From Candidatus Binataceae bacterium (GTDB lineage: Bacteria > Desulfobacterota > Binatia > Binatales > Binataceae), in NCBI GenBank assembly GCA_035500095.1, contig DATJXN010000145.1, positions 1 through 64,000 on the forward strand: a DNA stretch of 64,000 nucleotides, given 5' to 3'. Below, piece after piece: positions 4,485 to 64,000 of this stretch. Under the pieces are notes generated by a model. It did no database searches. It was not told where the DNA came from and saw only the letters and a program-made list of their open reading frames with translations. A program made the translations under genes and the position numbers. Each line of letters starts with the position of its first letter. The first letter of the stretch is position 1.

Positions 4485-4501
4485 TCGTTTTCCGGCCTTG
4501 A

Positions 4502-6118
4502 TCACATCCTGAACACGCCGAACGCGGTGGCCGGCGGGACGCCCGCGTTCAGCGACGCCGCGATCCCGAGCGCCAGCATCGCGCGCGTCTCCAGCGGATC
4601 GATCACGCCGTCGTCCCACAGCCGCGCGCTCGAGTAGTAGCAACTCGACTCGTGCTCGTACTTCGCGAGCGTCGGCCGCGTGAACTCGGCCTGCTCGGCC
4701 GCGGTCATCGTCTGCCCCTGCGCCTTCAACTGGTCGAGCTTGACCGTGAGCAGGGTGTTTGCCGCCTGCTCTCCGCCCATCACCGAGATGCGCGCGTTGG
4801 GCCACATGAAAAGCATCCGCGGCGAATACGCCCGCCCGCACATCCCGTAATTCCCGGCGCCGTTGGACGCGCCGATTAGCACCGTGAACTTCGGCACCTG
4901 CGCGTTGGCGACCGCGTTGACCATCTTGGCCCCGTCCTTGGCGATTCCGCCCTGCTCGTAGCGCTTGCCGACCATGAAGCCGGTGATGTTCTGCAGAAAG
5001 ACGAGCGGGATGCGGCGCGCGCAGCAGAGCGCGATAAAGTGCGTCGCCTTGAGCGCCGACTCGCTGAACAGCACGCCGTTGTTGGCGATGATTCCGACCG
5101 GGTAGCCGTAGATGCGCGCGAAGCCGGTCACCAGCGTCGCGCCGTAACGCGGCTTGAACTCGTGCATCCGGCTGCCGTCGACAAGGCGTGCAATCAGCTC
5201 GCGCACCTCGTAGGGCCGGCGCGTGTCGCCCGAGACGACCCCATAGATCTCGCGCGGATCGTAGTACGGATCCTCGGGCTCCTCCTGCTGCAGCGCGTAC
5301 TCGGGGGCGACCCGCGGGCCAAGGCTCTCGAAGATCGACCGCGCTATCAAAAGCGCATGTTCGTCGTCGTCGGCCAGATGGTCGCTCACGCCGCTAAGGC
5401 GCGTGTGGACGTCGCCGCCGCCGAGTTCTTCGGCGCTGACCACCTCGCCCGTGGCCGCGCGCACCAGCGGCGGCCCGGCGAGGAAAATCGTGCCCTGCTC
5501 GCGCACGATAATATTTTCGTCGCACATCGCCGGCACGTACGCGCCGCCCGCCGTGCACGAACCCATCACCGCCGCCACCTGCGGGATGCCCGCGGCCGAC
5601 ATCCGCGCCATGTTGTAAAAGATGCGCCCGAAGTGCTCGCGGTCAGGGAAGACCTCCGATTGCAGCGGCAGGAAGGCGCCTCCCGAATCGACCAGGTACA
5701 CGCACGGCAGATGGTTCTGCAGCGCGATCTCCTGCGCGCGCAGATGCTTCTTGACCGTCATCGGATAGTAGGTGCCGCCCTTGACGGTCGCGTCGTTCGC
5801 GACCACCACGATCTCGCGCCCCTGCAAGCGCCCGATCCCGGTCACGATCCCGGCACCCGGCGCCTCGTCGTCGTACATCCCCCACGCCGCGAGCGGCGAG
5901 AGCTCCATGAATGCGCTCTGCGGATCGAGGAGTTTCCGAATGCGATCGCGTGCCAGGAGCTTGCCGCGCTCGAGATGGCGGCGGCGCGCCTGCTCGGGGC
6001 CGCCCTCGCGCACGCGCTCGACCGCCGCGCGCAACTGTTTGACCGCCGTCTCCATCAGCGCGAAATTTTGCCGGTATTCCGGGCTCGAGGTGTTGATGCG
6101 GCTCTCGATTCGTTCCAT
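4502..6118 (-). CDS. Acyl-CoA carboxylase carboxyltransferase (beta) subunit, methylcrotonyl-CoA carboxylase type
   Basis: A 538-residue biotin-dependent carboxyltransferase, matching the length of MCC beta. It transfers CO2 from carboxybiotin to an acyl-CoA (3-methylcrotonyl-CoA or geranyl-CoA in known relatives). MCC-like features are the N-terminal [76 protein letters not shown] (an oxyanion Gly-Ala pair) and [19 protein letters not shown] in the C-terminal crotonase domain. The partner biotin carboxylase/BCCP subunit is not in the window, so it must be encoded elsewhere or beyond the edge. The gene converges with the channel gene, with 17 bases between stops. The choice of acyl-CoA substrate is inference. 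Confidence 0.92.
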
Positions 6119-6234
6119 CGCGTCCCCTCTCTCCGTCGCTCTCCGTCTTCTCTCTCGCGGTTCGATCCGCTGCGGCGAGGACCTGATACCTGCCGCGGTC
6201 GGTTTGGGCTAGATATTAGCTTGACCCAACACCA

Positions 6235-6321
6235 GACGGCGAAGCGGTCTTACAACGTGACCGCGAAGCGGTCTTACAACGTGACCGCAAAGCGGTCTTA
6301 CAACGGGACCGCGAAGCGGTC
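6235..6321. repeat. 24-bp tandem array of small hairpins
   Basis: There are four copies of a 15-base near-palindrome, GACCGCgaaGCGGTC (6235-6249, 6259-6273, 6283-6297, 6307-6321), separated by identical 9-base linkers TTACAACGT (the last ends in G). Copy 1 has one arm mismatch and copy 3 has AAA in the loop. The array ends 17 bases before the mutS2 start, so it would lie in the mutS2 leader or promoter region. The regular 24-bp period puts successive hairpins on a similar helical face. It is not CRISPR-like, since the linkers are conserved. Confidence 0.9.
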
Positions 6322-6338
6322 GGGAAGGAACGAGGCGG

Positions 6339-8705
6339 GTGCGCGATCGCGACCTCAGAGTGCTCGAGTTCCACAAAGTGATCGGCCTGGTCGCGGCGCT
6401 CGCGGCCTCCGGGCCCGGCCGCCGCGCGGTGGAGATGCTCCGGCCCTCGGGCGACCCTGCCGAGGCCGCCGCGCGTCTTCGCGTAACGGCCGAGATGGTC
6501 GCGCTGCGCGCGCACGCCGGCGCGCTCCCGATGCAGGAGTTCGCCGACCAGCGCGAACTCCTGCTCGCCGCCGCGCGCGAGGGCGCCGTGCTCGACGGCG
6601 TCTCGCTGCTGAGCGTGCGCGATTTCGTGCTTGCCGCGCGTCACGTCGCGGCCTTCATGCGCTCGCGGGTCGAGCCCTATCCGAATCTCGCGGGCATGGC
6701 GCAGAACCTGGCGGCGCCGAAGGAACTCGCCGACGCGCTGCTCGGCGCCCTCGCCGACGACGGCGGTCTGCTGGACGAGGCAAGCCCGCAGCTTTTGCGC
6801 CTCCGGACCCGGCTTCGCGCCGAGCGGGTCGAGCTCGAAGCGCGCCTTGCGCGCTCGCTCAATGCGCCGGGGATGGATTCTTTCGTCTCCGACTACCTGG
6901 TCACCGTCCGCAACCATCGCTTCGTTCTGCCGCTCAAACTCAACTACTCCGAGCGCCTCGAGGGTATCGTGCAGGACCGCTCGGTCTCGGGCGAAACGCT
7001 GTTCGTCGAACCGATGTGGGCGGTCGAGCTCAACAACCGCCTGATGATGCTGGAACGCGAGGTCGAGGCCGAGGAACGGCGCATCCTGACCCATCTGACG
7101 GCCATGATCCGCGGCTACGGCGTCGAGCTCAGAATGACTTTCGACGCGATGGTCGCGCTCGACGCGCTCAACGCGCGCGCGATTTTCGCCGAGCGCCTTC
7201 GATGCGTCGAGCCGGTGCTCGGCAACTTCGGCGAAAGCGGCCTCGAACTGGTCGAGGCGCGCCATCCGCTGCTCGTCGCCGGCGGGCGCGATGCCGTGCC
7301 AATCGACGTGCGCATCGCGGCCGGCCTGCATGGCATCGTGATCTCCGGCCCCAACACGGGCGGCAAAACCGTCGCGCTCAAGACCATGGGGCTGCTCGCG
7401 CTGATGGCGCAGGCGGGTCTGCTTATCCCGTCGCGCGAGGGCAGCCGCATCGTCGTCTTTCGCAGTATTTTCGCCGACATCGGCGACGAACAATCGATCG
7501 AAGCGAGCCTCTCCAGTTTCGCCGCGCATATCGCCAACCTGAGCGAGATGGCCGCCGCGCTCAAGGAGCCGGCGCTGGTCATCCTCGACGAACCCGGCGA
7601 GGGCACCGACCCTGTCGAGGGCGCAGCGCTCGCGATCGGCCTGATGACCTATCTCGGCCGGCGGCAATGCCTGGTCGCGATCGCTACTCATTCGGCCGCG
7701 ATCAAGCTCCATGCGTATTCGCGCGCCGGCTTCGAGGCTTCGGCGGTGGACTTCGACGCCGAGCATCTCCGGCCGCTCTATCGGCTCAAGCCGCACACGA
7801 TCGGCCAGAGCTACGGGCTTGCCGTCGCCGAACGCCTCGGATTGCCGGGCGAGATCGTCGCGGCCGCGCGCGAGGCGATGCCGGCGGGGGCGGCCGAAGT
7901 CGAGCGCGTGCTCGGCCTGCTCGACGCCGAGCGCGCAGAGATTCGCGCCGAGGCGGAGCGCCTGCGCGAGGAGGAACGGCGTGCTGCTGAACGCGCTGCC
8001 GAAGCGGAAGAAACCGCGCGCCGCGCGCGCGCACGGATCGACGCCGAGCGCGAACGGGTCGTGGCCGAGGGCAAGGCGCTAATCGCGGAGATCAGGCGCG
8101 AAAGCGCGGCGCTCGCCGAGGAGGTCAGGGCCGGGCGTAAGAGTCAGCGCGAGCTTGCCTCGACGCTCGCGCGCGCGGCGGAACGAATCAGCGCGATTGC
8201 GCCGCGGGCCGGCGCCGAAGAAGAGGGCGCCGCGCGCGAGCCGCTCAAGGTCGGCGACCGCGTCGAGTTCGGCGATATCCAGGGCGACTTGATCGCGCTC
8301 GAACCGGGACGCGCGGTCGTGAGCCGCGGCGGACTCAGGATTGAGGTCGCGCCAGAGCGGCTCCGCCGCGCGCAACTTCGCGCCGGCTCCGCACAGGAAC
8401 GCGCCGGTCAGGAACGGGTGCCCAAAGTCACCGTAAGCGCGGCGTCGGGCGCCGACGGCGGCGATAGCGAGCTTAACCTTATCGGGATGCGCACGGCGGA
8501 GGCGCTCCGGCGGCTCGAGGAGTTCCTCGACCAGGCCTATCTCACCAACCGGAGCGAGGTGCGGATCGTGCATGGGATCGGCTCGGGGGCGCTCAAGAAG
8601 GCGGTCCACGAATATCTCGCCGATTCGCGCTATTGCGCGAGTTTTCGCCAGGCCGAGCCCCATCGCGGCGGCGCCGGCGCCACCGTCGTGCAGCTGAATC
8701 TCTGA
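6339..8705 (+). CDS. mutS2: MutS2 family endonuclease/ribosome-rescue ATPase
   Basis: A 788-residue MutS2, close to the family norm. It has the MutS core and ATPase domains but no mismatch-recognition domain. The Walker A motif GPNTGGKT is near residues 336-343, Walker B is VILDEPGEGTDP near 413-425, and a long Arg/Glu/Ala-rich coiled coil covers about 510-620. A KOW-like segment (LKVGDRVEFGDIQGDLIAL) and a C-terminal Smr domain (about 709-788) follow. MutS2 proteins are implicated in suppressing recombination and in splitting collided ribosomes. In the Smr domain the usual LDLRG motif reads LNLIG, while HGIGSG is intact. Translation starts at GTG (6339) after an AAGGAA-type site and directly behind the hairpin array. 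Confidence 0.94.
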   Translation: MRDRDLRVLEFHKVIGLVAALAASGPGRRAVEMLRPSGDPAEAAARLRVTAEMVALRAHAGALPMQEFADQRELLLAAAREGAVLDGVSLLSVRDFVLAARHVAAFMRSRVEPYPNLAGMAQNLAAPKELADALLGALADDGGLLDEASPQLLRLRTRLRAERVELEARLARSLNAPGMDSFVSDYLVTVRNHRFVLPLKLNYSERLEGIVQDRSVSGETLFVEPMWAVELNNRLMMLEREVEAEERRILTHLTAMIRGYGVELRMTFDAMVALDALNARAIFAERLRCVEPVLGNFGESGLELVEARHPLLVAGGRDAVPIDVRIAAGLHGIVISGPNTGGKTVALKTMGLLALMAQAGLLIPSREGSRIVVFRSIFADIGDEQSIEASLSSFAAHIANLSEMAAALKEPALVILDEPGEGTDPVEGAALAIGLMTYLGRRQCLVAIATHSAAIKLHAYSRAGFEASAVDFDAEHLRPLYRLKPHTIGQSYGLAVAERLGLPGEIVAAAREAMPAGAAEVERVLGLLDAERAEIRAEAERLREEERRAAERAAEAEETARRARARIDAERERVVAEGKALIAEIRRESAALAEEVRAGRKSQRELASTLARAAERISAIAPRAGAEEEGAAREPLKVGDRVEFGDIQGDLIALEPGRAVVSRGGLRIEVAPERLRRAQLRAGSAQERAGQERVPKVTVSAASGADGGDSELNLIGMRTAEALRRLEEFLDQAYLTNRSEVRIVHGIGSGALKKAVHEYLADSRYCASFRQAEPHRGGAGATVVQLNL

Positions 8706-48348: not shown

Positions 48349-49311
48349 CTACGCCGCTGCCTGCGCGAGCCGCGCGTAGTGGGCCGCGATCTCGCGCCCG
48401 ATTGTCTCGACCTGACCGGCCCAGGCCTCCGGTTCGGCCACCGGCCACAGCACGAACTTGTCGAGGCCGCGCGTGATGTACTCGTCGACGCGCTTGATGA
48501 TGTCCTCGGCGGTGCCGAACACCGTGCGGCTGAAAAACTCCTCGCCGCCGCGGTCGAGCGAGCGCACCACCGGCTCCAGTTCGGCCCGCGCGCGGTCGCG
48601 CGAGGGGCCGAGCCGACAGAGCAGGATCAGGCCCGATTCGATTCGCGCGTCCGCGCGGCCGTACTCGGCCGCGTAGCCGCGGATCGACGTCATGTTGCGT
48701 GAGAATTCGTCGGGCGTCAGAAAGGACGCGAAGTACCCGTCGGCCATCCGCGCCGTGCGCCGCAGCGCCGACTCCGACTTGCCGCCGACCCAGATGTCGA
48801 TCGTGCCCGAGTCGTTGTTGGTGCGCCGCGTCGGATGCGGCTCGAGCGTGACATTGTCGAAATTGAAGAAGCGGCCGTGATGGCACACGTTGGATTGAGT
48901 CCACACCTTGCGCAGGACCTCGACCCCTTCGTCGAGGCGCCGCCCGCGCGTCTCCAGCGGAATTCCGGTCGCTGCGTAGTCGGCAAGGTTTGCGCCGGTG
49001 CCGACCGCCATCACCATCCGCCCGTGCGAATAGTAGTCGAGCGTGGCGAACGATTTCGCCACGGTCAACGGATGGCGCAAGTTGAGCAGCAGGACGCTCG
49101 GGCCGAGCTTGATGCGCGAGGTGCGCGAGGCCAGCACCGCGAGCGTCGCCACCACGTCAAGCTCGGGCGAGGGCGAGAGCAGATGGTCGGAGAGCCAGAA
49201 CGAATCGAGCCCCCAGTCCTCGGCCTTTTCGGCGACGTGCACGATGGTCTCCGGAGTCGGCATCCCGAGCCGCCAAAGACCGAACCCGACCCCAATTTTG
49301 ACCTGCTTCAT
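48349..49311 (-). CDS. LLM-class flavin-dependent oxidoreductase
   Basis: A 320-residue luciferase-like TIM-barrel protein, probably binding FMN or F420. Typical sequences are GLWRLGMPTPETIVHVAEKAEDWGLDS-like start, WLSDHLLSPSPELDVVATLAVLASRTSRIKLGPSVLL, and SHGRMVMAVGTG. The start at 49311 has AAGGAG at proper spacing, better than 49317. Members include monooxygenases and F420-dependent dehydrogenases; the specific reaction is not predictable. Divergent from the MBL gene. Confidence 0.9.
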   Translation of the reverse strand: MKQVKIGVGFGLWRLGMPTPETIVHVAEKAEDWGLDSFWLSDHLLSPSPELDVVATLAVLASRTSRIKLGPSVLLLNLRHPLTVAKSFATLDYYSHGRMVMAVGTGANLADYAATGIPLETRGRRLDEGVEVLRKVWTQSNVCHHGRFFNFDNVTLEPHPTRRTNNDSGTIDIWVGGKSESALRRTARMADGYFASFLTPDEFSRNMTSIRGYAAEYGRADARIESGLILLCRLGPSRDRARAELEPVVRSLDRGGEEFFSRTVFGTAEDIIKRVDEYITRGLDKFVLWPVAEPEAWAGQVETIGREIAAHYARLAQAAA

Positions 49312-49396
49312 AACCATCTCTCCTTAACTATGACCGCTCTCGCTTAGCCGGATAGTACCATAGCGGACGCTTGTCGGATCGGCTAATCTGTCGCCG

Positions 49397-52203: not shown

Positions 52204-52395
52204 ATGGCGTCTGTTGAGGTACTTTTCGTCCGCGCGCGGGAGACATTGGTCCGTCGTTTTCGGGCACAGACTATGGTCGAGTATGCCCTGATCATCGCGT
52301 CCATCGGGGTCGTAGCGTGGGGCGCTTATAACGTAATGGGCCACAGCGTCGGAACGATGGCGAGCGGCATCGATTCGGATTTGACCACCGCGTAG
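52204..52395 (+). CDS. Flp/type IVb pilin
   Basis: A 63-residue pilin. A basic leader (residues 1-21) precedes the prepilin segment AQTMVEYALIIASIGVVAW. Cleavage after Ala21 would give the mature E5 and Y6 found in Flp pilins. The helix is followed by a short tail. Family leaders often end in Gly before the cleavage site; here it is Ala. No tad/cpa/rcp assembly genes are present, so it must be assembled from elsewhere. It has its own promoter and terminator, suggesting strong single-gene expression. Confidence 0.85.
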   Translation: MASVEVLFVRARETLVRRFRAQTMVEYALIIASIGVVAWGAYNVMGHSVGTMASGIDSDLTTA

Positions 52396-52609: not shown

Positions 52610-53053
52610 TCATCCGTTAACCAATCTCCATTGAACCAGCGTCGCTCCCGGATGATCCTCGAAGACCGCTTCGACCTCGGCATCGAACGGCGCATCCAGC
52701 ATCGGGTTGCCGAGCAGATTGCCGGCCATCCGAACATTGCCGGCATCCGGGAGTTCGATCACCGCGATAATGAACGGTCCGGCGTCTTTGAGTGCCGGAT
52801 GCACCGGGTTCCAGGATCGGACCCAGGTGTAGAGCCTCCCGCGGCCTGACAGGCGATGCCATCCGAGTTCGCCGCTAAGACATTTGTGGCAAATCCATTC
52901 GGGGCCGAACTGGAACGTCTCGCAACGGCGGCATCGTTGCACGACCAGCTCGTGTCGGCGCGCGGCCTCCCAGAAACCGGCGTCCATCCCGTCGCGCTGC
53001 GCCTTTGGCGCGGGCAATCCCTCGGGCAGATAGTAGGGCGGGTTCTGAGCCAT
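52610..53053 (-). CDS. Zn-ribbon/OB-fold protein (DUF35)
   Basis: A 147-residue acyl-CoA-associated protein with rubredoxin-like zinc ribbon CRRC...CHKC (about residues 41-58) followed by an OB fold. DUF35 proteins pair with thiolase-like enzymes; in steroid-degrading aldolases (Ltp2 with its DUF35 partner) they are required for activity. Here the thiolase gene lies directly upstream, 54 bases away, on the same strand, and the pair is likely a complex. Confidence 0.92.
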   Translation of the reverse strand: MAQNPPYYLPEGLPAPKAQRDGMDAGFWEAARRHELVVQRCRRCETFQFGPEWICHKCLSGELGWHRLSGRGRLYTWVRSWNPVHPALKDAGPFIIAVIELPDAGNVRMAGNLLGNPMLDAPFDAEVEAVFEDHPGATLVQWRLVNG

Positions 53054-53107
53054 GCGAGTTTTCCTGCTTCGTCTATGCGATTGCGCGCGCGATGTTCCGA
53101 CTGCGCA

Positions 53108-54277
53108 TCATCCGCGCACGATAAGGTTGCTCACCGGCGAGACCATCGGGCCCGAGGCCACCAGCGCGATCTTCGCATCGGGCACTTGCGCGGTCGAGGT
53201 TCCGCGGCACTGCCGGACCGCTTCGTTGACGAGTTCGAGGCCGTGCATGTAACACTCGGCGATATTGCCGCCGCTCGTGTTGAGCGGGAGCTTGCCGTGC
53301 GGCGCGATCAGATTTTCGAACCGGCACAGATCCATCACGCCGTCGGGCTCGCAGAAGCCGTGCTCGACCAGGCTTATGGGCACGGCGCCGCTGAAGTGCT
53401 CGTAGATTTGCACCACGTCGACGTCGGCGGGACCGATCTCCGCCATCTGGTAGAGCCGCGGGGCCAGGCTTCTGAAATGCGAGGACGCGTAGTCGGGCGA
53501 GTTCTCGGCCGCCGCCGCCGCCCGATACGGCGCGCCCTGCGCCGCCGCCATCACGTACACCGGTTTCTGCTTGAGGTCCCGCGCGCGCTCGGCGCTGGTG
53601 AGGATCAGCGCGGCGGCGCCATCGTTTTCCATGCAGCAGTCATAGAGATGAAACGGCTCGACGATCCATCGCGAGCGGTCGTACTGCTCGCGCGTGAGCG
53701 GCCGTCCGTACATCACGGCGCGCGGATTAAGTTGCGCATGGTGGTAGTCGGCGAGCACCACCGCTGCGAGCGCATCCTGGGTGACGCGATGCTCGTACAT
53801 GAAACGGCGCACGCGCAGCGCGACCCACTGCGCGGGCACGAACAGCCCGTAAGGCCATGCGTAAGCGGCGGGTCCCGAGACGGTTTGGACCGGAGCGGCC
53901 TGGCCGAAGCGGCCGAACTGCCCCTGCGCGAGGGCGCGGAACACCACCACGTACTTGGCGTAGCCCGCGGCGACCGCCGCCGCGGCTTGGGCCACCGCGC
54001 CTGAGCCGCCGCCCCCGCCTCCGCCCCAGACCATGCTCGCCCACGCGTAGTGCGGCAGGCCAAGCGCGGTGGCGAGGCGCGCGGCGTCGTTGCGATCGTT
54101 GCTGTAAGAGGCGAAGCCGTCGAGGTCGGCAACCTTGATTCCGGCGTCCGCGACCGCGTTCAGGATCGCTTCGCAGGCGAGCTGGAATTCGCTGACCGGC
54201 GCCTGGCCGCGTTTGTAGTAGCGGGTCTCGCCGAGGCCGACGATCGCGACCTTGTCCTTGATGCTGTACTCGCCCAT
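53108..54277 (-). CDS. Thiolase-family protein (SCP2/lipid-transfer-type)
   Basis: A 389-residue thiolase-fold protein of the non-specific lipid-transfer group, which lacks a standard thiolase Cys nucleophile motif at the start and carries Tyr/Asp/His-type residues instead. Landmarks are KVAIVGLGETRYYKRG, GGGGGGSGAVAQAAAA, MENDGAAALILTSAER and NTSGGNIAECYMHGLE. Such proteins act as thiolases or, with DUF35 partners, as aldolases that cleave acyl side chains. Start ATG 54277 lies 16 bases after the upstream LLM stop. Reaction type is inference. Confidence 0.9.
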   Translation of the reverse strand: MGEYSIKDKVAIVGLGETRYYKRGQAPVSEFQLACEAILNAVADAGIKVADLDGFASYSNDRNDAARLATALGLPHYAWASMVWGGGGGGGSGAVAQAAAAVAAGYAKYVVVFRALAQGQFGRFGQAAPVQTVSGPAAYAWPYGLFVPAQWVALRVRRFMYEHRVTQDALAAVVLADYHHAQLNPRAVMYGRPLTREQYDRSRWIVEPFHLYDCCMENDGAAALILTSAERARDLKQKPVYVMAAAQGAPYRAAAAAENSPDYASSHFRSLAPRLYQMAEIGPADVDVVQIYEHFSGAVPISLVEHGFCEPDGVMDLCRFENLIAPHGKLPLNTSGGNIAECYMHGLELVNEAVRQCRGTSTAQVPDAKIALVASGPMVSPVSNLIVRG

Positions 54278-54293
54278 CGGCGCGCGCCGGAGC

Positions 54294-55409
54294 CTACGCG
54301 CTCGCCGCGTTTGCGTGCGCGTGACGATCGGCATCGAGGTCCAGAAAATGCGGCAGCACCTCTTCCGCCATCAGCCGCATCGACTTGAACCACGCCTCGC
54401 GATCGTCGGCGTAGTCGAAGGTGAAGAGCAGCAGCGTCCCGAAGCCGCCGAGCGCCTTATACATCTCCGCAAGCTTGTCGCGCACGGTGCGCGGCGACCC
54501 CACGAGCCATCCGTGATCGGACAGGTACTCGGGCGTCACCGCGTCGTCGGGCACCGACGGGTCGTCCTTGAGATATTTGGTGAACTGGAAATCGGCCATC
54601 AGCGGCAGCAAGTACTCGCGCATCATGCGGCCCATCATGCCCTGGACGCAGTGGCGATGCGCCTCCTCGTCGGTATCGGCAACGAAGATCTCGCGCACGA
54701 TGCGCCAGTCCTGCCGGTTGGGCCGCGCGTGGCTGCGCCGCGCACCCTCGAGCACCGCGTCCCAGTGCGTCGCGACGTAGCTCGGACTCATATTGAGACT
54801 GAGCGGCATGAAGCCGTGCTCGCCGGCGAGCTTGAGCGTTTCCGATCCCGGATTGAGCCCGGCGATTCCGATCGGCGGATGCGGCTTTTGCAGCGGGCGC
54901 AGATGATGGCCCAGCGTGCGCAGCATCGGACCCGGCACGTTCACGCTCCAGAACTTGCCCTTGTACTCGACGCCGCCGTCGCTTGCCCAGACCTTGAGCA
55001 TGATGTCGAGCGCTTCGCGGGTCATGTCGCGATTAACGCCCTTCATGCCGTCAACGCAGAACAGCTGCCAGTCGCTCGGCAGGCCGCTTGCGCCGATGCC
55101 GAGCATGTAGCGGCCCTCGGCCAGATGGTCCATGAAAGCGATACGGCAGGCGAGTTCGGCCGGATGATGATACGGCAGCAGATGGGCGCCGGGCGCAAGT
55201 TTGATCTGGCGCGTCTGCATGAGGGCCTGCGCGATGAGCAGGTCGGGCGCCGGATTGGGTTCCCAGCGCGAAGTGAAGTGCTCGCCGATCCATGCCTCGC
55301 TGTAGCCGAGGCGGTCGGCCTCGCGCAGCACGGCGAGGTCCCATTGCTGTCCGGCGAGCAGTCCGCGCTCGGGCGGATGCGACGGCATCAGAAAGAGTCC
55401 CAGCTTCAT
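54294..55409 (-). CDS. LLM-class flavin-dependent monooxygenase
   Basis: A 371-residue bacterial-luciferase-like oxidoreductase. Recognisable segments are MKLGLFLMPSHPPERGLLA, EAWIGEHFTSRWEPNPAPDLLIAQAL-type barrel strands, LAPGAHLLPYHHPAELACRIAFMDHLAEGRYMLGIG-type core, and the Arg-containing C terminus. CAGGAGG precedes the ATG. It may oxidise or Baeyer-Villiger-cleave a cyclic ketone, consistent with its neighbours (thiolase and a retro-Claisen hydrolase). The specific substrate is inference. Confidence 0.92.
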   Translation of the reverse strand: MKLGLFLMPSHPPERGLLAGQQWDLAVLREADRLGYSEAWIGEHFTSRWEPNPAPDLLIAQALMQTRQIKLAPGAHLLPYHHPAELACRIAFMDHLAEGRYMLGIGASGLPSDWQLFCVDGMKGVNRDMTREALDIMLKVWASDGGVEYKGKFWSVNVPGPMLRTLGHHLRPLQKPHPPIGIAGLNPGSETLKLAGEHGFMPLSLNMSPSYVATHWDAVLEGARRSHARPNRQDWRIVREIFVADTDEEAHRHCVQGMMGRMMREYLLPLMADFQFTKYLKDDPSVPDDAVTPEYLSDHGWLVGSPRTVRDKLAEMYKALGGFGTLLLFTFDYADDREAWFKSMRLMAEEVLPHFLDLDADRHAHANAASA

Positions 55410-55443
55410 ACGGCCTCCTGTATTCGCGTTGTTACGCGCCGCG

Positions 55444-55758
55444 CTATTTCAGTTGCGAGAATTCCGCCGGCGTCATGATCTTGTTGCTTTGGCTGACCAC
55501 CAGCGATCGCAGCTTGGGCACGATCGCCGCGCGGCGCGGGTCGCGTCCCCACGCGGTCCACTTCTGCTGGCGTTCGTTCAGATCGTTGAAGGCCCACAGG
55601 TGAACCAGCTCGTTGAGCGGCCCGATGTCGGTTGACCAGTAGCCGAGCGGTTTGAGGCCGTGCTCGGCCAGCAGCGGCAGCAGCTCATCCTTGGTGATCT
55701 GGATGTACTGCGGCGCTCCGCCCAACACCAGCGTGTAAGTCCGAAGTTCGTAGATCAT
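55444..55758 (-). CDS. NIPSNAP-family protein
   Basis: A 104-residue dimeric alpha+beta-barrel-type protein. It opens MIYELRTYTLVLGGAPQY, followed by LLAEHGLKPLGYWSTDIGPLNELVHLWAFNDLNER, the NIPSNAP pattern. The function is unknown, but the fold is shared by small monooxygenases. AAAGGAGA lies upstream. It is embedded in the catabolic minus-strand cluster with the LLM gene downstream. Confidence 0.9.
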   Translation of the reverse strand: MIYELRTYTLVLGGAPQYIQITKDELLPLLAEHGLKPLGYWSTDIGPLNELVHLWAFNDLNERQQKWTAWGRDPRRAAIVPKLRSLVVSQSNKIMTPAEFSQLK

Positions 55759-55796
55759 CGCGTCCGCGTCTCCTTTTTTTGCGCTGCTCCCTTATA

Positions 55797-56621
55797 TCAG
55801 CCCTTGGAGCCCCTGGCTCCCGGCCACGACGTCGCCGCCGCCAGGCCCTCCAGCGCGAGCCCGTAGCCGAGGTCGTCGAGCATCAGGCGCTTGAGCTGCT
55901 GAGTGATGGCGACGCGCGCATAGCGGACGGTGAGCGCCGGCTTGGCGACGATCAGCTCTGCCAGCTCCCAGGCGCGCGCCACCAGGCGATCGCGCGGCAC
56001 GACCTCGCTCACCACGCCCAGCTCCAGCGCCTCGCGCGCCGAGAGCTTTTGCCCGGTGAGCAGGAAATAACGGCCGCGATTGGGGCCCAGCACCAGCGGC
56101 CACACTATATGCACGCCGTCGCCCGGCACGATCCCGTTGGGAAAGTGCGGCGCGTCCTGAAACGCCGCGTTCTCCGAGGCGATCACGATATCGCACAGCA
56201 CGGCCAGCTCGGCATGGATCAGCGCCGGACCGTTGACCGCCGCGATCATCGGTACCTCGATGTTGAGATGGTTCATCAGTAGGTACTTCGCATCGTTGTA
56301 GATGTGATCCCAGGTGGTGGTGCGCACACCCGCGTGCGGCGGGGGCGCGGGCTCGCCGCTTGGGAGTTTGCCTACCGTTGCGCCGCGGCCGGCGCCGTGG
56401 TCGACCTCGGCGCAGAACGCGTCGCCGGTGCCGGTGATGATGACGCAGCGATTGCCGTGGTCGCGCCCGACGTCGGTAAATGCGTACGACAACTCCTCGT
56501 GCGGCGGCCCGCCCCATCGAAGCGGCCCGTCCTCGCTGTGCAGCGTCATCTGGATTATCCCGTCGCGCCTCTCCATCGTGACGTGCTTGTACTTGTTCTG
56601 ATATTCCTCGAACTTACTCAT
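55797..56621 (-). CDS. Crotonase-fold hydrolase resembling 6-oxocamphor hydrolase
   Basis: A 274-residue crotonase-superfamily enzyme. From memory, its sequence closely follows Rhodococcus 6-oxocamphor hydrolase, which splits cyclic beta-diketones by a retro-Claisen reaction: [31 protein letters not shown] and [13 protein letters not shown]. The active-site residues line up at a constant +14: H159 (H145), D168 (D154) and H136 (H122); H41 matches H45. The usual GGG oxyanion turn of hydratases (NGxAxGGG) is absent (NGPALIHAE), so simple enoyl-CoA hydration is unlikely. The start at 56621 follows AGGAGAAAGG. Confidence 0.8.
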
Positions 56622-56789
56622 CCCGGCCTTTCTCCTGTTGCCCGCGCTGGGCGTGATGCGAATCGGTTCCGAAGCTGATTTTGGCATCCTACTAAAGAGC
56701 GGGGCGCGACGGTTAGCAGTTTGCCGCCCTTGCCGAACGCCATCGGTTGGCAGCAGAGTAGGAACGCATTTGAGTCAACGCCTGTTTAG

Positions 56790-57683
56790 ATGAGAAGACC
56801 CGCCATGAACACCGGACGCCGCGAACGCATCATCGACGAGCATCAGGCCGTCAGCTGGATCGAGGACGGGATGACCGTCGCGATCGGCGAGCCTGCGCCG
56901 ATGGCGCTCGTGCGCGGAATAGTACGGCGCGGCGTGCGCAATCTCTCCGTCGTCGCGAGCGGCTTTGCGCTCGACATGCTGATCGCTGCCGGATGCGTGC
57001 GCAAGACCGTGAGCTACTACGCCGGCGGCGGCCCAGGCATCCCCGTCCTGCCGTCGTTCCGGCGCGCGGCCGAACGCGGTGAAATCGAAGTCTGGGAGTG
57101 CGAGGAGGGCATCCTGTGCGCAGGATTGCAGGCGGCGGCGCAGATGCTGCCGTTCATGCCGTGGCGCGGCGGCGTCGGCACCTCGCTGCCGGAGATAAAT
57201 CCCGATCTCAAGCTCTTCCGCGATCCTCTTCGCGGCGAGGAATTGATCGCAGTGCCGCCGATAAAGCCCGACGTGACATTGCTGCACGCCGCCGCTGCCG
57301 ACGCCCACGGCAACGTGCGCCATCTTGGCGGACCCGGATGGCTCGATTTGTTTCAGCATCGCGCCGCCGACCGCACTATCGTGCAGGTCGAGCAGGTGGT
57401 CTCGAACGAAGAAATCCGGGCCGATCCGTGGGCGACCACGATCGCCGACGCCGACGCGATCGTGCGCGCGCCCTTCGGCGCCCATCCGTTCTACAGCCGC
57501 GGCTTCTACATCACCGATGGGCCGCATCTGCGCGCCTACCTGCAGGCCGCCGACAAAGCCGCCGCCGGCGATCGCGCGGCGCTCGAGGAGTACCTCGACC
57601 GTCATTGCCGCAGGTCCGCGGGGCTTGCCGAGTACCTCGAAGCAATCGGCATCAAACGGCTGCTCGAACTGCACGAATACTGA
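56790..57683 (+). CDS. IpdA-like CoA-transferase family I alpha subunit
   Basis: A 297-residue class I CoA-transferase alpha-type protein. It is most like IpdA of actinobacterial steroid degradation by memory: CEEGILCAGLQAAAQMLPFMP (101-124), GVGTSLPE, HGNVRHLGG and APFGAHPF. E106 in EEG probably matches the essential Glu of IpdA. IpdAB opens a cyclic beta-keto-CoA ring as a hydrolase rather than acting as a transferase. The start may be 56790 or 56805; both are weakly supported. A membrane-protein gene separates it from the beta-subunit gene. Confidence 0.8.
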   Translation: MRRPAMNTGRRERIIDEHQAVSWIEDGMTVAIGEPAPMALVRGIVRRGVRNLSVVASGFALDMLIAAGCVRKTVSYYAGGGPGIPVLPSFRRAAERGEIEVWECEEGILCAGLQAAAQMLPFMPWRGGVGTSLPEINPDLKLFRDPLRGEELIAVPPIKPDVTLLHAAAADAHGNVRHLGGPGWLDLFQHRAADRTIVQVEQVVSNEEIRADPWATTIADADAIVRAPFGAHPFYSRGFYITDGPHLRAYLQAADKAAAGDRAALEEYLDRHCRRSAGLAEYLEAIGIKRLLELHEY

Positions 57684-57730
57684 TCAACGAAGCACGATCC
57701 GAAACTCCGGTTCAAAGGAGAGCTGCGCGC

Positions 57731-58354
57731 GTGGCGGAAGGGAAAAAATACTCGGGCAAGGTAATCGCGCTTTTCGCGTTTTTGCCTTGGCTGGTGTACG
57801 TCTTGGCCTCCGCTGCGGGGCGCTGGGACGTCGCGACCGCAGGCGGCATGATCATGTGCCTGGTCTATCTCTCGGTGCTCAGCCGGCAGGCGACGATCAA
57901 ACTGATGGACTGGACGACCCTCGCGTTCTTCTTGAGCGCGATGGTGTTGACGATGGGGCTCCGCTCCAACGTGCTCGTCACCTACCAGGTGATGATCATC
58001 TGGTCGTTCTATGCCGTCGCCGCGTGGGCGTCGGTCGTGCTGCGCCGCCCGTTCACCGCCGCCTACGCGCGCGAGGAGCAGCCGCCCGAGGTCTGGGACC
58101 TGCCGATCTTCCATCGCCTGAACTGGATCATGACGCTCTTCTGGTGCGGCCTGTTCAGCGTCAACGTCGGGTTTGGCGCGATCGCGGTGCTGGTTGGCGG
58201 CAACCTCGGCCGGCGGGTTCCCGGATTTCTCATCCCGACGGGATTGCTCATCTATGGCTTTTACTTCAGCGCACGCTTCCCGATTCGCTACGTGGCGCGC
58301 GTCAACGCCGGCGGCGCTGCGGCGGAGGCCGCCAACAGCAAGTCAACGGCCTAG
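57731..58354 (+). CDS. Polytopic membrane protein between the CoA-transferase-type subunits
   Basis: A 207-residue inner-membrane protein with about six hydrophobic segments (10-28, 36-52, 62-75, 82-103, 131-155, 165-183). A conserved-looking short soluble loop (EEQPPEVWDLPIFHRLNW) lies before the fifth. GTG 57731 follows AAAGGAGA. No family recognised. It lies 47 bases after the alpha gene and 69 bases before the beta gene, so all three are probably one transcript. It might transport the substrate or anchor the complex. Confidence 0.75.
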   Translation: MAEGKKYSGKVIALFAFLPWLVYVLASAAGRWDVATAGGMIMCLVYLSVLSRQATIKLMDWTTLAFFLSAMVLTMGLRSNVLVTYQVMIIWSFYAVAAWASVVLRRPFTAAYAREEQPPEVWDLPIFHRLNWIMTLFWCGLFSVNVGFGAIAVLVGGNLGRRVPGFLIPTGLLIYGFYFSARFPIRYVARVNAGGAAAEAANSKSTA

Positions 58355-58423
58355 CGCGCGATGGATCGGGCCCGGGCCCCCGGGCATCTGGCCGAAGTAT
58401 CCGTTGACCAGCATGAGGACAGC

Positions 58424-59209
58424 ATGACGAGCGAATACAGCGTGCAGGAACTGATGGCGGTGTTTTTGGCGCGTGACCTCAAAGATGGCGAACTTTTGCG
58501 CGTCGGCGTGGCGATGCCGGTCGCGGAAGCGGCGGTGCGCCTCGCCCATCTGATGCACGGCCCCAACATCGAACTGGTGTTTCTCGGCGGGCGGATGAAC
58601 GTCCACGATCTCGAAACCATCCCGATGCCTGCGTTCGGATGGGACCGGCGGGTGGTGCGATGGACCGAGTCATACAGCGACACCGGCCATCGTTTCGACC
58701 GGCTGAAGGATTGGAGCAAACACGTTTTCTTCATCGGCGGCGTCCAGGTCGATCGCTTCGGCAATACCAACCTGATCGGCATCGGCCCCGATTACCGGCG
58801 CCTGAAGTTTCGCGGCCCCGGTTCGGTCGGCACGCCCACGCTCAGCACCCATGTCGGCCGCTACTACATCGTGCTCAACAGCCACAGCCCGCGCCTGCTG
58901 GTCGAACGCTGCGACTATATCAGCGCCTGCGGATGGGGCAGCGGCGGCGCCGATGCGCGCCGCAAACTGGGGCTTCCCGGCGGCGGCCCCAGGTACGTCG
59001 TGACGCCGCTTTGCGTGATGGACTTCGAGGAGGAGACACGGCGGATGCGCCTGCGCTCGCTCCATCCGGGCGTCAGCGCTGCGACGGTGCGCGAGAGCAC
59101 CGGATTCGAACTGGTGATTCCGCCGTCGGTGCCGACCACCGCGCCGCCCACCGCAGAGGAGCTTGAGGCGCTCCGCACGCGCGTCGATAGCGCGGGCCGT
59201 CTGCGTTAG
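58424..59209 (+). CDS. IpdB-like CoA-transferase family I beta subunit lacking the catalytic Glu
   Basis: A 261-residue class I CoA-transferase beta-type protein. In glutaconate CoA-transferase the beta-subunit nucleophile is E54 in an ESG turn; here the aligned sequence is HGPNIELVFLGGRMN, with L54-G55-G56. Loss of this Glu is the known feature of IpdAB-like ring-opening hydrolases. GVQVDRFGNTNLIGIG and ERCDYISACGWGSGG are also in keeping with the family. The start at 58424 follows TGAGGA. Paired with the alpha gene across an inserted membrane-protein gene. Confidence 0.8.
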   Translation: MTSEYSVQELMAVFLARDLKDGELLRVGVAMPVAEAAVRLAHLMHGPNIELVFLGGRMNVHDLETIPMPAFGWDRRVVRWTESYSDTGHRFDRLKDWSKHVFFIGGVQVDRFGNTNLIGIGPDYRRLKFRGPGSVGTPTLSTHVGRYYIVLNSHSPRLLVERCDYISACGWGSGGADARRKLGLPGGGPRYVVTPLCVMDFEEETRRMRLRSLHPGVSAATVRESTGFELVIPPSVPTTAPPTAEELEALRTRVDSAGRLR

Positions 59210-59213
59210 CTTT

Positions 59214-59990
59214 TTATTCCGGCAGATTGCCGACGCGCGAGAACACCGCGTGCCAGCTCGCGCGAAACCACGGGACGCCGTCGCGCCGGCCGAATACCTG
59301 CCCGCGCACCAGCATCGCGCCGTTGCCCTGGATCGCGCAGTCGAGAATCGTTTCCTCGTCCACCGCGAAGGTTTGGCCGCGGCGATGGAGGTAAAATTCG
59401 TCGAAGTGCAGTTGTGCGCGCATCCGCGCCGCGTCGCGGCCGTCGGTCGAAATCAAATCCATGCGCCCGGCCGGATTGACGATCTTCATGTTCGGATCGA
59501 CGCCGACCTGGCTGAACGTCAGCTCGAACGGTCCGCTTCCGATCCGCTGGTAGCAGATGCGGTACGTCTTCGGCGTCCACACGCCGACTCTCGGCGCTCC
59601 CGGCATCCGCTCGATCGAATCGAGAAATTCGACGCGACCGTCCCAGCATCCGCGGAATATCGCCGGCAGGATTGGCTGCGCGTGTAACATCGAGGCCGGC
59701 GGCGGGGGAGGAGGCGGCGGAAGCGGCGGAGGTGGAAGTGGCGGCGGCGGCAGCTGTGGCGCCGGGGCCGGCGGCTGCGGCGTCGGAGGAATTACGGACG
59801 GAATTTCCTGGAGCTGATTGGAAGGCGGCAACGGCGGCCGCGCGGTCGGCACAGGCCGCGGGCGGAAGCTCGGCTGCGATTGCGGCGCCGGCGGCTGTAC
59901 TTCCAGCGGTTCCTGCGCGTGCGGCGCGGTCGGCGCCAGCATCAGCGCCATCGCCGCGAGCAGTGTCAACCCCGGTGTTCGCCGCCCCAT
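59214..59990 (-). CDS. Secreted proline-rich protein of unknown function
   Basis: A 258-residue protein with signal peptide (cut near AHAQ, 23-26), then about 70 residues of Pro-rich repeats (PPPPLPPPPLPPPP type) that form an extended spacer. A C-terminal domain (about 105-258) contains C-containing FRGCWDGRVEFLDS, TYRICYQRIGSGPFELTF and an EFYLHRRGQTFAVDEETILDC stretch; these could be a beta-rich ligand-binding fold. Probably periplasmic or surface-exposed. The Pro stretch is matched by GGCGG repeats on the plus strand. No family recognised. Confidence 0.75.
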   Translation of the reverse strand: MGRRTPGLTLLAAMALMLAPTAPHAQEPLEVQPPAPQSQPSFRPRPVPTARPPLPPSNQLQEIPSVIPPTPQPPAPAPQLPPPPLPPPPLPPPPPPPPASMLHAQPILPAIFRGCWDGRVEFLDSIERMPGAPRVGVWTPKTYRICYQRIGSGPFELTFSQVGVDPNMKIVNPAGRMDLISTDGRDAARMRAQLHFDEFYLHRRGQTFAVDEETILDCAIQGNGAMLVRGQVFGRRDGVPWFRASWHAVFSRVGNLPE

Positions 59991-60648: not shown

Positions 60649-61404
60649 ATGAAGCTTCAAGGGAAAGTGGCTCTCATAACCGGCGCCGGATCGGGAATGG
60701 GCAAGGCGACCGCGCTGCTCTTTGCACGCGAGGGAGCTAAAGTCGCGGCGGCAGATATCAGCGAGGCCGCGGTCGAAAAGGTCGCGCGCGAAATCCGCGA
60801 GGCCGGCGGCGAGGCGATCGCGATCGGCGCCGACGTCGCAAAAGCCGAGGACGTGCAGCGGATGGCCGCGACGACGGTCGAGCGTCTGGGACCGCCCAAC
60901 GTGCTCTACAACAACGCCGGCATCGAGGGCGAGACGAACTTCATCGCCCAGACCAGCGAGGAAGCCTTCGACAAGGTCATCGCGATCAATCTGCGCGGCG
61001 TGTTTCTCGGAATGAAGTACGTGCTGCCGCACATGGTCAAGCTCGGCTCCGGCTCGGTCATCAACCAGGCCTCGATCGCTGGGATGGTCGCGATTCGCGG
61101 CAGCGTTGCGTACTGCGCGTCCAAGGCCGGCGTGATCGCGATGACGCGCGTCGCCGCGTTCGAGTACGCCCGCTACAACATCCGCGTCAACTGCATTTGC
61201 CCGGGCGCGATCGAGACGCCGATGGCCGAGCGGATAAGGCATGGCGAACCGCCGCGGCCGAGCTCGGTCAAGCGGATTTCGCTGTTCAACCGGATGGGTC
61301 TGCCCGAGGAGATCGCCAAGGCCGCGCTCTTCCTGGCGAGCGACGACGCGTCATTTGCAACCGGCGCGCCGTTCGTGATCGACGCGGGCTGGACGGTAAC
61401 CTGA
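60649..61404 (+). CDS. SDR family oxidoreductase
   Basis: A 251-residue classical SDR. Motifs: GAGSGMGKAT (12-21), NNAG near 88, catalytic QASIAG (Ser) and YCASK (Tyr, Lys near 153-157), and TGAPFVIDAGWTVT at the C terminus. ADISE after beta-2 favours NAD(H). AAGGAGG lies upstream. It shares only general SDR similarity with the other SDR here, and is not obviously linked to the bufferin gene. Confidence 0.93.
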   Translation: MKLQGKVALITGAGSGMGKATALLFAREGAKVAAADISEAAVEKVAREIREAGGEAIAIGADVAKAEDVQRMAATTVERLGPPNVLYNNAGIEGETNFIAQTSEEAFDKVIAINLRGVFLGMKYVLPHMVKLGSGSVINQASIAGMVAIRGSVAYCASKAGVIAMTRVAAFEYARYNIRVNCICPGAIETPMAERIRHGEPPRPSSVKRISLFNRMGLPEEIAKAALFLASDDASFATGAPFVIDAGWTVT

Positions 61405-61425: not shown

Positions 61426-63102
61426 TCAGCACTGTCCCGAGCGCAGCACCTGCCCCGGCATCGCGCCGCTCGCGCGCCCGTGCTCGTAGAGCAGGCGCCC
61501 GTTGACGATCGTGTACTCGACGCCTTCGGCGGGCATCACCAGGCGCCGTCCGCCGCCCGGGAGATCGTACTGCATGTGCGCGCGCTTGGCCGAGCCAACC
61601 GTGTTGTAGTCGAAGATCGTAACGTCGGCGGCGAGTCCGCGAGCGAGACGGCCGCGCTTGCGTATGCCGAAGAAGTCGGCAGGCTCTGACGTGATGCGCT
61701 TGACCGCATGCTCGAGCGTCAGCGCCTGGCGCTCGCGCACCCACTTGCCGAGCAGGTAGGTGCAATAGCCGGCGTCACACAGCATATCGACGTGCGCGCC
61801 GCCGTCGGAGAGTCCGAGCATCGTGCGCGGGTCGCCGATCATCCGCGCGATGCCCTCCTCGTGGTACTGCGCCATCGTGTACTGGATGTTGAGGTCGTCC
61901 TCGAGCGCGAGGTCGAGGAAAGTATCGAGCGGATCGCGGCCGCGCTCGGCGGCGATTTCCGCGACGTTCTTGCGCTCAAGCGGCTTGAGCGCGGGGTTTG
62001 CGACTTCGAGCACTTCGACGCGATGCCACTTGCCGGTGAACAGATGCGGCCGCGTCAGCTCCTTGCGGAAGGAATCGCGAAACGCGGGGTCGGCGTAGAT
62101 TCGCTTCTGCGCTTCTGCCGGCTGGTTGAAGACGTGGTTCCACGCCTCCATGTCGGCGAAGCTGAAAGGGTTGCGCAGATCGATCTGCACCACGAACGGC
62201 TTGCACAGCACCTGCGGCACGCCGCCGCGCCGAATCAGCGGTTCCAGCCGCTTGAGCGTCTGTTCCGCGTATTCGGGCTTGTCCGGCCGCGACGCCATCG
62301 CGAGCCAGGTCACCGGCCGCGCGCTCTCGCCGAGGAGGAAGTCGAGGAGTTGATATTCGTCCTCGAGGACCTGGCCCGCGCGCCGCGTGAGCGCGATTTC
62401 GATCGCGCCCTTGCCGAGTTCCTTGAGTACGTTGGCGCAGGCCTTGAGCTCGTCGCGGCTGGCGAGCCGGCAGGCGAGGGGCTGGCCGCGAAAGCCGATG
62501 TGCTGTGCGAGCGTGGTGGTAGAAAAGCCCATCGCACCCGCTGTCATCGCTTCGTGGAGCAGCGCCGCGATGCGCTGAGTCTCGTTGGGGGACGCCGCCC
62601 GCTCCATCGATTCCGCGCCCATCACGAAATGGCGAAACGGCGTAAGCGGCGCGAGAAAGCCGACGTTGATTCCGACGCCCCGGCGCTCGGCCGCGTCCAT
62701 GAATTCGGGGAAGCTCACCCAGTCCCAGGTGATGCCCTTGCTCAGCGCGGCGAACGGAATCGCCTCGACGTTGACCAGGTCCCACGCCGCGACCTCGTGT
62801 ACCTCGGGCTTGCAGGGCGCGATCCCGACGCCGCAATTGCCCATCACAACCGAGGTCACGCCGTGCCACGAGGTGCAGGTGAGCAGCGGGTCCCAGCAAA
62901 TCTGCGCGTCGTAGTGGGTGTGCGGATCGACGAAGCCCGGCGCGACGATAAGCTCGCCGGCGTCGATGGTGCGCGCGGCGCCGCCGCTCACCTTGCCGAT
63001 TTCCGCGATCGCGCCGTCCTTGATCGCGACGTCGGCGCGCACGCGCGGCGCGCCGGTGCCGTCAACCACGGTTCCGTTCTTGATCAGGAGATCGTATGCC
63101 AT
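61426..63102 (-). CDS. D-aminoacylase/N-acyl-D-amino-acid deacylase-family amidohydrolase
   Basis: A 558-residue amidohydrolase with metal ligands H61 and H63 (VDPHTHYDAQ). Other motifs are GNCGVGIAPCKP (a Cys that bridges or binds metal in D-aminoacylases), LSDGGAHVDM (catalytic Asp) and GADVTIFD-like C-terminal small barrel. Family members hydrolyse N-acyl-D-amino acids, but several related enzymes act on other amides, so substrate is uncertain. GAGGGAGGGA precedes the ATG. Confidence 0.9.
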   Translation of the reverse strand: MAYDLLIKNGTVVDGTGAPRVRADVAIKDGAIAEIGKVSGGAARTIDAGELIVAPGFVDPHTHYDAQICWDPLLTCTSWHGVTSVVMGNCGVGIAPCKPEVHEVAAWDLVNVEAIPFAALSKGITWDWVSFPEFMDAAERRGVGINVGFLAPLTPFRHFVMGAESMERAASPNETQRIAALLHEAMTAGAMGFSTTTLAQHIGFRGQPLACRLASRDELKACANVLKELGKGAIEIALTRRAGQVLEDEYQLLDFLLGESARPVTWLAMASRPDKPEYAEQTLKRLEPLIRRGGVPQVLCKPFVVQIDLRNPFSFADMEAWNHVFNQPAEAQKRIYADPAFRDSFRKELTRPHLFTGKWHRVEVLEVANPALKPLERKNVAEIAAERGRDPLDTFLDLALEDDLNIQYTMAQYHEEGIARMIGDPRTMLGLSDGGAHVDMLCDAGYCTYLLGKWVRERQALTLEHAVKRITSEPADFFGIRKRGRLARGLAADVTIFDYNTVGSAKRAHMQYDLPGGGRRLVMPAEGVEYTIVNGRLLYEHGRASGAMPGQVLRSGQC

Positions 63103-63290: not shown

Positions 63291-64000
63291 ATGTCGACGA
63301 CTTTTGGCGCGATGATGTTTCCGACCGATTATGCGATTCAGCCGATCGAACTCGCGCGCGCGATCGAGGAACGCGGTCTCGATGCGCTCTACTTCCCCGA
63401 ACATACGCACATTCCTACGAGCCGCCGCAGCCCCTGGCCTGGTGGCGGCGATCTGCCCGAGGAGTACTGGCACACCCATGATCCGTTCGTGGCGCTGGGA
63501 GCGGCCGCGGCGGCGACCACGCGCATCAAACTCGGCACGGGCGTGTGCCTGGTGATCGAACGCGATCCGATCGTGCTCGCCAAGGAGTGTGCCTCGCTCG
63601 ACATGATTTCAGGCGGACGCTTCGTGTTGGGAATCGGCGGCGGATGGAACGCCGAAGAGATGGAAGATCACGGCACTAACTTCCGTACGCGATGGGCGCT
63701 CTTGCGCGAGCGGATTCTGGCGATGCGCGAAATCTGGACCAAGGACGCGCCAGAGTATCATGGCGAATTCGTGAACTTTCCGCCGATGCGCGCGTTTCCC
63801 AAACCGGTGCAAAAGGGCGGGCCGCCGGTGCTGCTCGGATCGGAGGCCAAGCGATGCTTCGAGCGGGTGGCCGATTACTGCGACGGCTGGATGCCTATCT
63901 ACCGGCGCAATCACACGCTCGCCGACGGCGTGAAACAGTTGCGCGAGGCCGCAAGCCGTGCCGGCCGCCGCTTCGAGTCGTTTGCGCTTTCCGTGTTCGG
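63291..64000 (+). CDS. LLM-class (F420-type) oxidoreductase, truncated by window end
   Basis: About 236 residues of a luciferase-like oxidoreductase before the window ends; no stop is reached. GAMMFPTDYAIQPIELARA opens it, followed by ERGLDALYFPEHTHIPTSRR, and SGGRFVLGIGGGWNAEEMEDHG, the signature of the F420-dependent TIGR03619-like subgroup. GGAGG precedes ATG 63291. The third LLM gene in the window. Confidence 0.88.
   Translation, partial: MSTTFGAMMFPTDYAIQPIELARAIEERGLDALYFPEHTHIPTSRRSPWPGGGDLPEEYWHTHDPFVALGAAAAATTRIKLGTGVCLVIERDPIVLAKECASLDMISGGRFVLGIGGGWNAEEMEDHGTNFRTRWALLRERILAMREIWTKDAPEYHGEFVNFPPMRAFPKPVQKGGPPVLLGSEAKRCFERVADYCDGWMPIYRRNHTLADGVKQLREAASRAGRRFESFALSVF

Follow-up and report, generated by a model that had tools for sequence, protein, structure and literature searches.

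6-Oxocamphor hydrolase (PDB entries 1o8u and 1szo) and Anabaena beta-diketone hydrolase (2j5g and 2j5s), the 3,6-diketocamphane 1,6-monooxygenase of the CAM plasmid (4uwm), the steroid side-chain aldolase Ltp2/ChsH2-DUF35 (6ok1) and the COCHEA-CoA hydrolase IpdAB, of the glutaconate CoA-transferase superfamily, are the described enzymes closest to those predicted at the locus reported here. This locus lies in a stretch of 64,000 nucleotides (hereafter, the window; contig DATJXN010000145.1, positions 1 to 64,000) from a metagenome-assembled genome of a soil bacterium, Candidatus Binataceae (Binatota; 3.6 Mb, 95% complete). On the minus strand, in transcription order and with short gaps, it encodes a crotonase, a NIPSNAP protein, a luciferase-like monooxygenase (LLM), a thiolase-like protein and a DUF35 protein. 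On the plus strand, starting from the divergent spacer and likewise with short gaps, follow an IpdA-like protein, a membrane protein and an IpdB-like protein (Table 1).

Binatota are uncultured, and the phylum's main genomic survey treats methylotrophy, alkanes and pigments (PMC8262859). In a word search, that survey did not mention cyclic, terpenoid or steroid degradation or Baeyer-Villiger enzymes. Ring-cleavage catabolism itself is known, and the succession of a crotonase and IpdAB has a precedent in EchA20 and IpdAB (PMC5380842), so the idea of combining the two is not itself new. What is new here is the type of crotonase, the type of LLM, the IpdAB-like clade and the phylum.

An earlier reading of the window from its letters alone (the original prediction) had proposed that the locus degrades terpenoid or steroid-like rings and that two different hydrolases cleave them in one pathway. 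Its gene list was confirmed, with open reading frames at every coordinate named, and its family calls hold at the domain level. Pfam assigned DUF35/ChsH2 zinc and OB domains, Thiolase_C_1, Bac_luciferase, NIPSNAP and ECH_1 to the minus-strand set; the plus-strand set gave CoA_trans, no family for the membrane protein, and CoA_trans. Its interpretation as a whole is partly supported. On balance, we favor the view that the locus would serve to degrade an alicyclic compound, probably a terpenoid, through successive C-C cleavages, and the evidence from each enzyme is presented below.

The crotonase groups with 6-oxocamphor and beta-diketone hydrolases

The best solved relatives of the crotonase were 6-oxocamphor hydrolase (1o8u, E 2.9e-77) and the Anabaena beta-diketone hydrolase (E 2.8e-72), and the next, an enoyl-CoA hydratase, followed at E 4.5e-20. 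In a tree of 66 proteins, the crotonase fell inside a clade with 1o8u and 2j5g (SH-aLRT support 100, branch length 1.92), apart from the enoyl-CoA hydratases. All five active-site residues are present (His45, His122, His145, Asp154 and Glu244 in 6-oxocamphor hydrolase numbering); D153, H144, E243 and H43 were previously reported as the catalytic residues of ABDH (PMC3584854). Every member of the clade keeps the three histidines and Asp154, with Gln replacing Glu244 in two of them. Outside the hydrolase clade, no protein of the tree has His122, and the other active-site residues are missing in most. When the predicted structure (mean pLDDT 82) was searched with Foldseek, places 1-12 were all taken by chains of 6-oxocamphor or beta-diketone hydrolases.

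Thus, as judged by sequence, tree and predicted fold, the crotonase is a true homologue of the 6-oxocamphor/beta-diketone hydrolases and not a hydratase, as the original prediction had proposed; ordinary hydratase identity was ruled out by the tree and the residues. The protein nevertheless differs from the characterized hydrolases, to which it is ~48% identical over the model alignment, in its operon partners and in having a stretch around residues 75-98, modelled with low confidence, that is partly missing in them.

The window genome has a single crotonase gene of this type. Across 148 genomes of the class, 46 gave one or more matches at E <= 1e-45, with up to five per genome. Close relatives, among the matches listed, came from Binatota, Chloroflexota including SAR202, Pseudomonadota and others. 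Crotonases of this type thus occur across phyla, in some cases beside an LLM and a P450, and are candidates, open to testing, for a step of hydrolytic ring opening. One such case is a Dehalococcoidia genome (L199), where genes for an LLM, a P450 and an HpaB-type protein come after the crotonase gene and a GMC oxidoreductase gene runs divergently from them.

The monooxygenase is of the diketocamphane type

Against solved structures, the window LLM matched 3,6-diketocamphane monooxygenase (4uwm) over its full length at 213 bits, with the next structure at 81 bits. The window genome holds about 80 matches to the LLM family (PF00296), and with the 3,6-diketocamphane enzyme as the query the window gene scored 210 bits and the next 72. 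His46 and Glu52 are cavity residues common to the 3,6- and 2,5-diketocamphane monooxygenases (PMC4631483). Both were found in 32/32 diketocamphane-type LLMs as compared to 9/111 other LLMs, and both are present in the window LLM, which also shares Trp51 with the 3,6 enzyme. We therefore predict from sequence that this protein is a type II Baeyer-Villiger monooxygenase of the diketocamphane type, the single such relative in its genome. The original prediction had recognized the flavoprotein family but had overlooked this type.

Closer assignment is not warranted. The window LLM is only ~37% identical to the characterized 3,6 enzyme, and two of the latter's residues that contact flavin mononucleotide (FMN), His10 and Ser44, are replaced by Met and Gly, so that the window LLM is not a 3,6-diketocamphane monooxygenase orthologue and belongs only to the wider type. 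The same two positions also differ in the 2,5-diketocamphane enzyme (PMC4631483).

With respect to cofactor supply, flavin reductases gave three matches in the window genome and FMO-like proteins a single weak one; for F420, there is just a fragment of CofD, located where a contig ends. The ~80 LLMs represent an expansion comparable in kind to that of SAR202, in which recalcitrant alicyclic matter is a proposed target of type II Baeyer-Villiger LLMs (PMC5395668). Word searches of that paper and another on SAR202 found no crotonase or enoyl-CoA hydratase partner. Two further LLM genes, neither of the diketocamphane type, lie near the cluster at 63345-63998 (+) and 48349-49317 (-).

It is conceivable, although we regard it as unlikely, that the LLM and the crotonase serve in the tailoring of a lipid or terpenoid instead of in catabolism. 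Most LLMs and most crotonases of this clade have no known native substrate, and no role is assigned to the neighboring membrane and exported proteins; both points would fit such a function. However, catabolism better accounts for the Ltp2-like aldolase, the hydrolases, the dehydrogenases and the many paralogues with their patchy distribution.

The thiolase-fold protein and its DUF35 partner resemble Ltp2

The thiolase-fold protein was closest to Ltp2 (6ok1; 269 bits, next 147). In Ltp2, the catalytic pair consists of Tyr294, within the motif YDHF, and Tyr344 (PMC12329534). Equivalents of Tyr294, His296 and Tyr344 are all there in the window protein, with YEHF in place of YDHF, and both tyrosines are kept in 34 of 35 related rows, the remaining row being gapped. 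The position of the thiolase nucleophile is without Cys, and the adjacent DUF35 protein carries the zinc motif C-x2-C-x10-C-x2-C, which it shares with the Ltp2 partner. Thiolase identity was ruled out by these residues, and the pair is predicted to be an Ltp2-type retro-aldolase with its partner subunit. Hence, the original prediction of a thiolase/DUF35 pair was correct as to the fold and DUF35 but overlooked the retro-aldolase residues. Unlike the Ltp2/ChsH2 system, the window DUF35 protein stands alone, with no fused MaoC hydratase, and no steroid genes were seen around it.

The IpdAB-like pair forms its own clade

IpdAB lacks the beta-subunit glutamate that is essential in type I CoA-transferases (PMC5380842). 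Similarly, the window IpdB-like protein has Leu at the position of the CoA-transferase beta Glu54, and the IpdA-like protein keeps the alpha-subunit glutamate, the residue altered in entry 6coj. In the class pairs sampled, the catalytic glutamate seems to swap subunits, as they have either the alpha-Glu without the beta-Glu or the beta-Glu without the alpha-Glu. In a joint tree, the beta-glutamate genes formed one clade (support 100/98), including those of a second pair in the window genome. This second pair (L125, contig 134) is an ordinary CoA-transferase pair that has the beta-subunit glutamate and serves as an internal control. Grouping of the window clade with CoA-transferases was rejected in the approximately unbiased (AU) test (p = 2.4e-4). 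Ordinary type I CoA-transferase identity was thereby ruled out for the window pair by the beta residue, the tree and the AU test.

Canonical steroid IpdAB made up a third, separate clade of the joint tree. Because the window pair lies outside it, in a clade of its own, we class the pair as IpdAB-like only; the original prediction was right to set it apart from ordinary CoA-transferases, but it is not canonical IpdAB. The window clade also differs from canonical IpdAB in having Leu or Phe at the beta position and, in family f1, a membrane-protein gene between the subunit genes. The locus thus marks a CoA-transferase-like clade, distinct from steroid IpdAB, that has the residue pattern of IpdAB.

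These results bear on whether the locus might encode a Mycobacterium-type pathway for steroid rings C/D, in which the crotonase would stand for EchA20 and the pair for IpdAB. EchA20 and IpdAB are known to act in sequence (PMC5380842), and enzymes of the steroid side chain likewise include an Ltp2-like aldolase (PMC12329534). However, EchA20 clusters with MenB (PMC5380842), whereas the window crotonase groups with CoA-independent beta-diketone hydrolases, and the window pair lies outside the canonical clade. With the window IpdB as the query and a threshold of E <= 1e-20, the window genome yielded the ordinary CoA-transferase paralogue only and no canonical IpdB; this absence carries little weight, as canonical copies elsewhere in some cases barely passed the threshold. 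We therefore consider a steroid pathway unlikely, and the steroid-like rings of the original prediction are unsupported.

Conservation of the locus among relatives

A survey of related genomes, as the original prediction had suggested, showed that the order DUF35, thiolase, LLM, (NIPSNAP), crotonase, followed by the divergent IpdA, membrane protein and IpdB genes, is kept in three genera (g1, g2 and g175), indicating that the arrangement is not due to chance. NIPSNAP was ruled out as a core member, as it is restricted to the window's genus. Family membership, key residues, conserved order and operon-like spacing are thus established for the locus. Among genomes of the class carrying the IpdB-like clade (E below 1e-130), 28/28 also carry a 6-oxocamphor-hydrolase-type crotonase.

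Both camphor-type enzymes are paired a second time elsewhere in the class, as judged from the gene sequences. In genus g186 (L075), an operon comprises an LLM 62% identical to that of the window, Amidohydro_2 and GST-like genes, and a deeply branching paralogue, 40% identical, of the 6-oxocamphor-hydrolase type. Directly upstream of this operon (3913-6355) are Nmad2, MazG_C and uracil-DNA-glycosylase-like genes. Enrichment of any LLM near 6-oxocamphor-hydrolase-type crotonases was not significant when diketocamphane-type LLMs were left out (p 0.07).

Several observations, in addition to the divergence of the LLM described above, weigh against a single alicyclic degradation pathway. In two genomes (G293 and G294; L045 and L048 versus L113 and L114), the crotonase operon lies apart from the IpdAB-like operon, and family f89 (L115-L122) has IpdAB-like genes without the crotonase operon. 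The co-occurrence in 28 genomes is confounded by descent, since two families supply all of them. In many genomes, a diketocamphane-type LLM occurs without a crotonase within ~10 kb, and a P450, a CoA ligase and a flavin reductase are all absent from the cluster. Enrichment of any LLM near 6-oxocamphor-hydrolase-type crotonases was not significant when diketocamphane-type LLMs were left out (p 0.07).

It is possible, then, that two independent catabolic modules with different substrates merely adjoin, one formed by the DUF35/aldolase/monooxygenase/beta-diketone-hydrolase operon and the other by the IpdAB-like operon. The unlinked operons and the IpdAB-like genes standing alone in family f89 would be explained in this way, but the head-to-head layout with a short spacer kept in three genera would not be expected, nor would the presence of the crotonase in all genomes with the IpdAB-like clade, confounded as that is. 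We regard two modules as a distinctly weaker candidate than a shared function in alicyclic degradation, and a stronger one than either the steroid or the tailoring function.

Proposed pathway

In the stepwise degradation that we favor, the diketocamphane-type FMN monooxygenase would first put oxygen beside a ring ketone. The 6-oxocamphor-hydrolase-type crotonase would then convert a cyclic 1,3-diketone to a keto acid by CoA-independent retro-Claisen cleavage, and CoA activation and beta-oxidation might follow through enzymes encoded elsewhere. The thiolase-fold/DUF35 pair would cleave a beta-hydroxyacyl-CoA by an Ltp2-like retro-aldol reaction, and finally the IpdAB-like pair could hydrolyze a CoA-linked cyclic beta-dicarbonyl. 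The reactions on native substrates, the order of steps, the substrate and the union of both divergent operons in one pathway are what we infer, the last because the operons are separate in some genomes; the claim of the original prediction that both hydrolases act in one pathway is accordingly not established. More tentatively, the locus may represent an undescribed terpenoid-type route of Binatota, in which a camphor-type hydrolase and monooxygenase acting in sequence would feed an Ltp2-like aldolase and a ring-hydrolyzing third non-transferase clade of the glutaconate CoA-transferase superfamily.

Other features of the window

Table 1. Positions of the genes and spacer of the locus, and of adjoining genes, in the window.
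Feature	Position	Strand	Basis or remark
DUF35/ChsH2-like zinc-ribbon plus OB-fold partner subunit	52610..53053	-	Pfam; CxxC-x10-CxxC; PDB 9myr_B, 6ok1_B
Thiolase-fold protein, predicted Ltp2-type retro-aldolase	53108..54334	-	Likely start Met at 54277; Ltp2 match and residues
Luciferase-like monooxygenase, 3,6-diketocamphane-monooxygenase type, predicted type II Baeyer-Villiger	54294..55409	-	4uwm match; His46/Glu52
NIPSNAP protein, genus-specific addition	55444..55758	-	Pfam; orthologous loci L038 and L040 only
Crotonase-fold 6-oxocamphor/beta-diketone hydrolase homologue	55797..56687	-	Conserved part from Met at 56621; PDB, tree, Foldseek
Divergent intergenic spacer between both operons	56688..56789	.	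~100 bp; 70-171 bp in orthologous loci, between aligned coding parts
IpdA-like alpha subunit	56790..57683	+	IpdA catalytic-type glutamate is E106 of the frame
Multi-helix membrane protein between IpdA-like and IpdB-like genes	57731..58354	+	No known family or fold
IpdB-like beta subunit	58424..59209	+	Leu in place of CoA-transferase Glu54; open frame extends from 58361
Conserved proline-rich protein, N-terminal signal-like stretch	59214..59990	-	Adjoins IpdB-like gene in family f1; no known family
Short-chain dehydrogenase	60652..61404	+	Linked to IpdAB-like genes in relatives
Amidohydro_3 family hydrolase	61426..63102	-	Linked in several relatives

The membrane protein had no Foldseek match below E 0.5, with a modest predicted model as the query. 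When the divergent spacer was searched for a shared operator, short, weakly conserved pieces were found only, and Rfam gave zero matches in the window. Between a glyoxalase-II-like gene and the DUF35 gene, a small frame at 52204-52395 (+) resembles Flp/Fap pilin (E 0.00096, below the Pfam cut-off).

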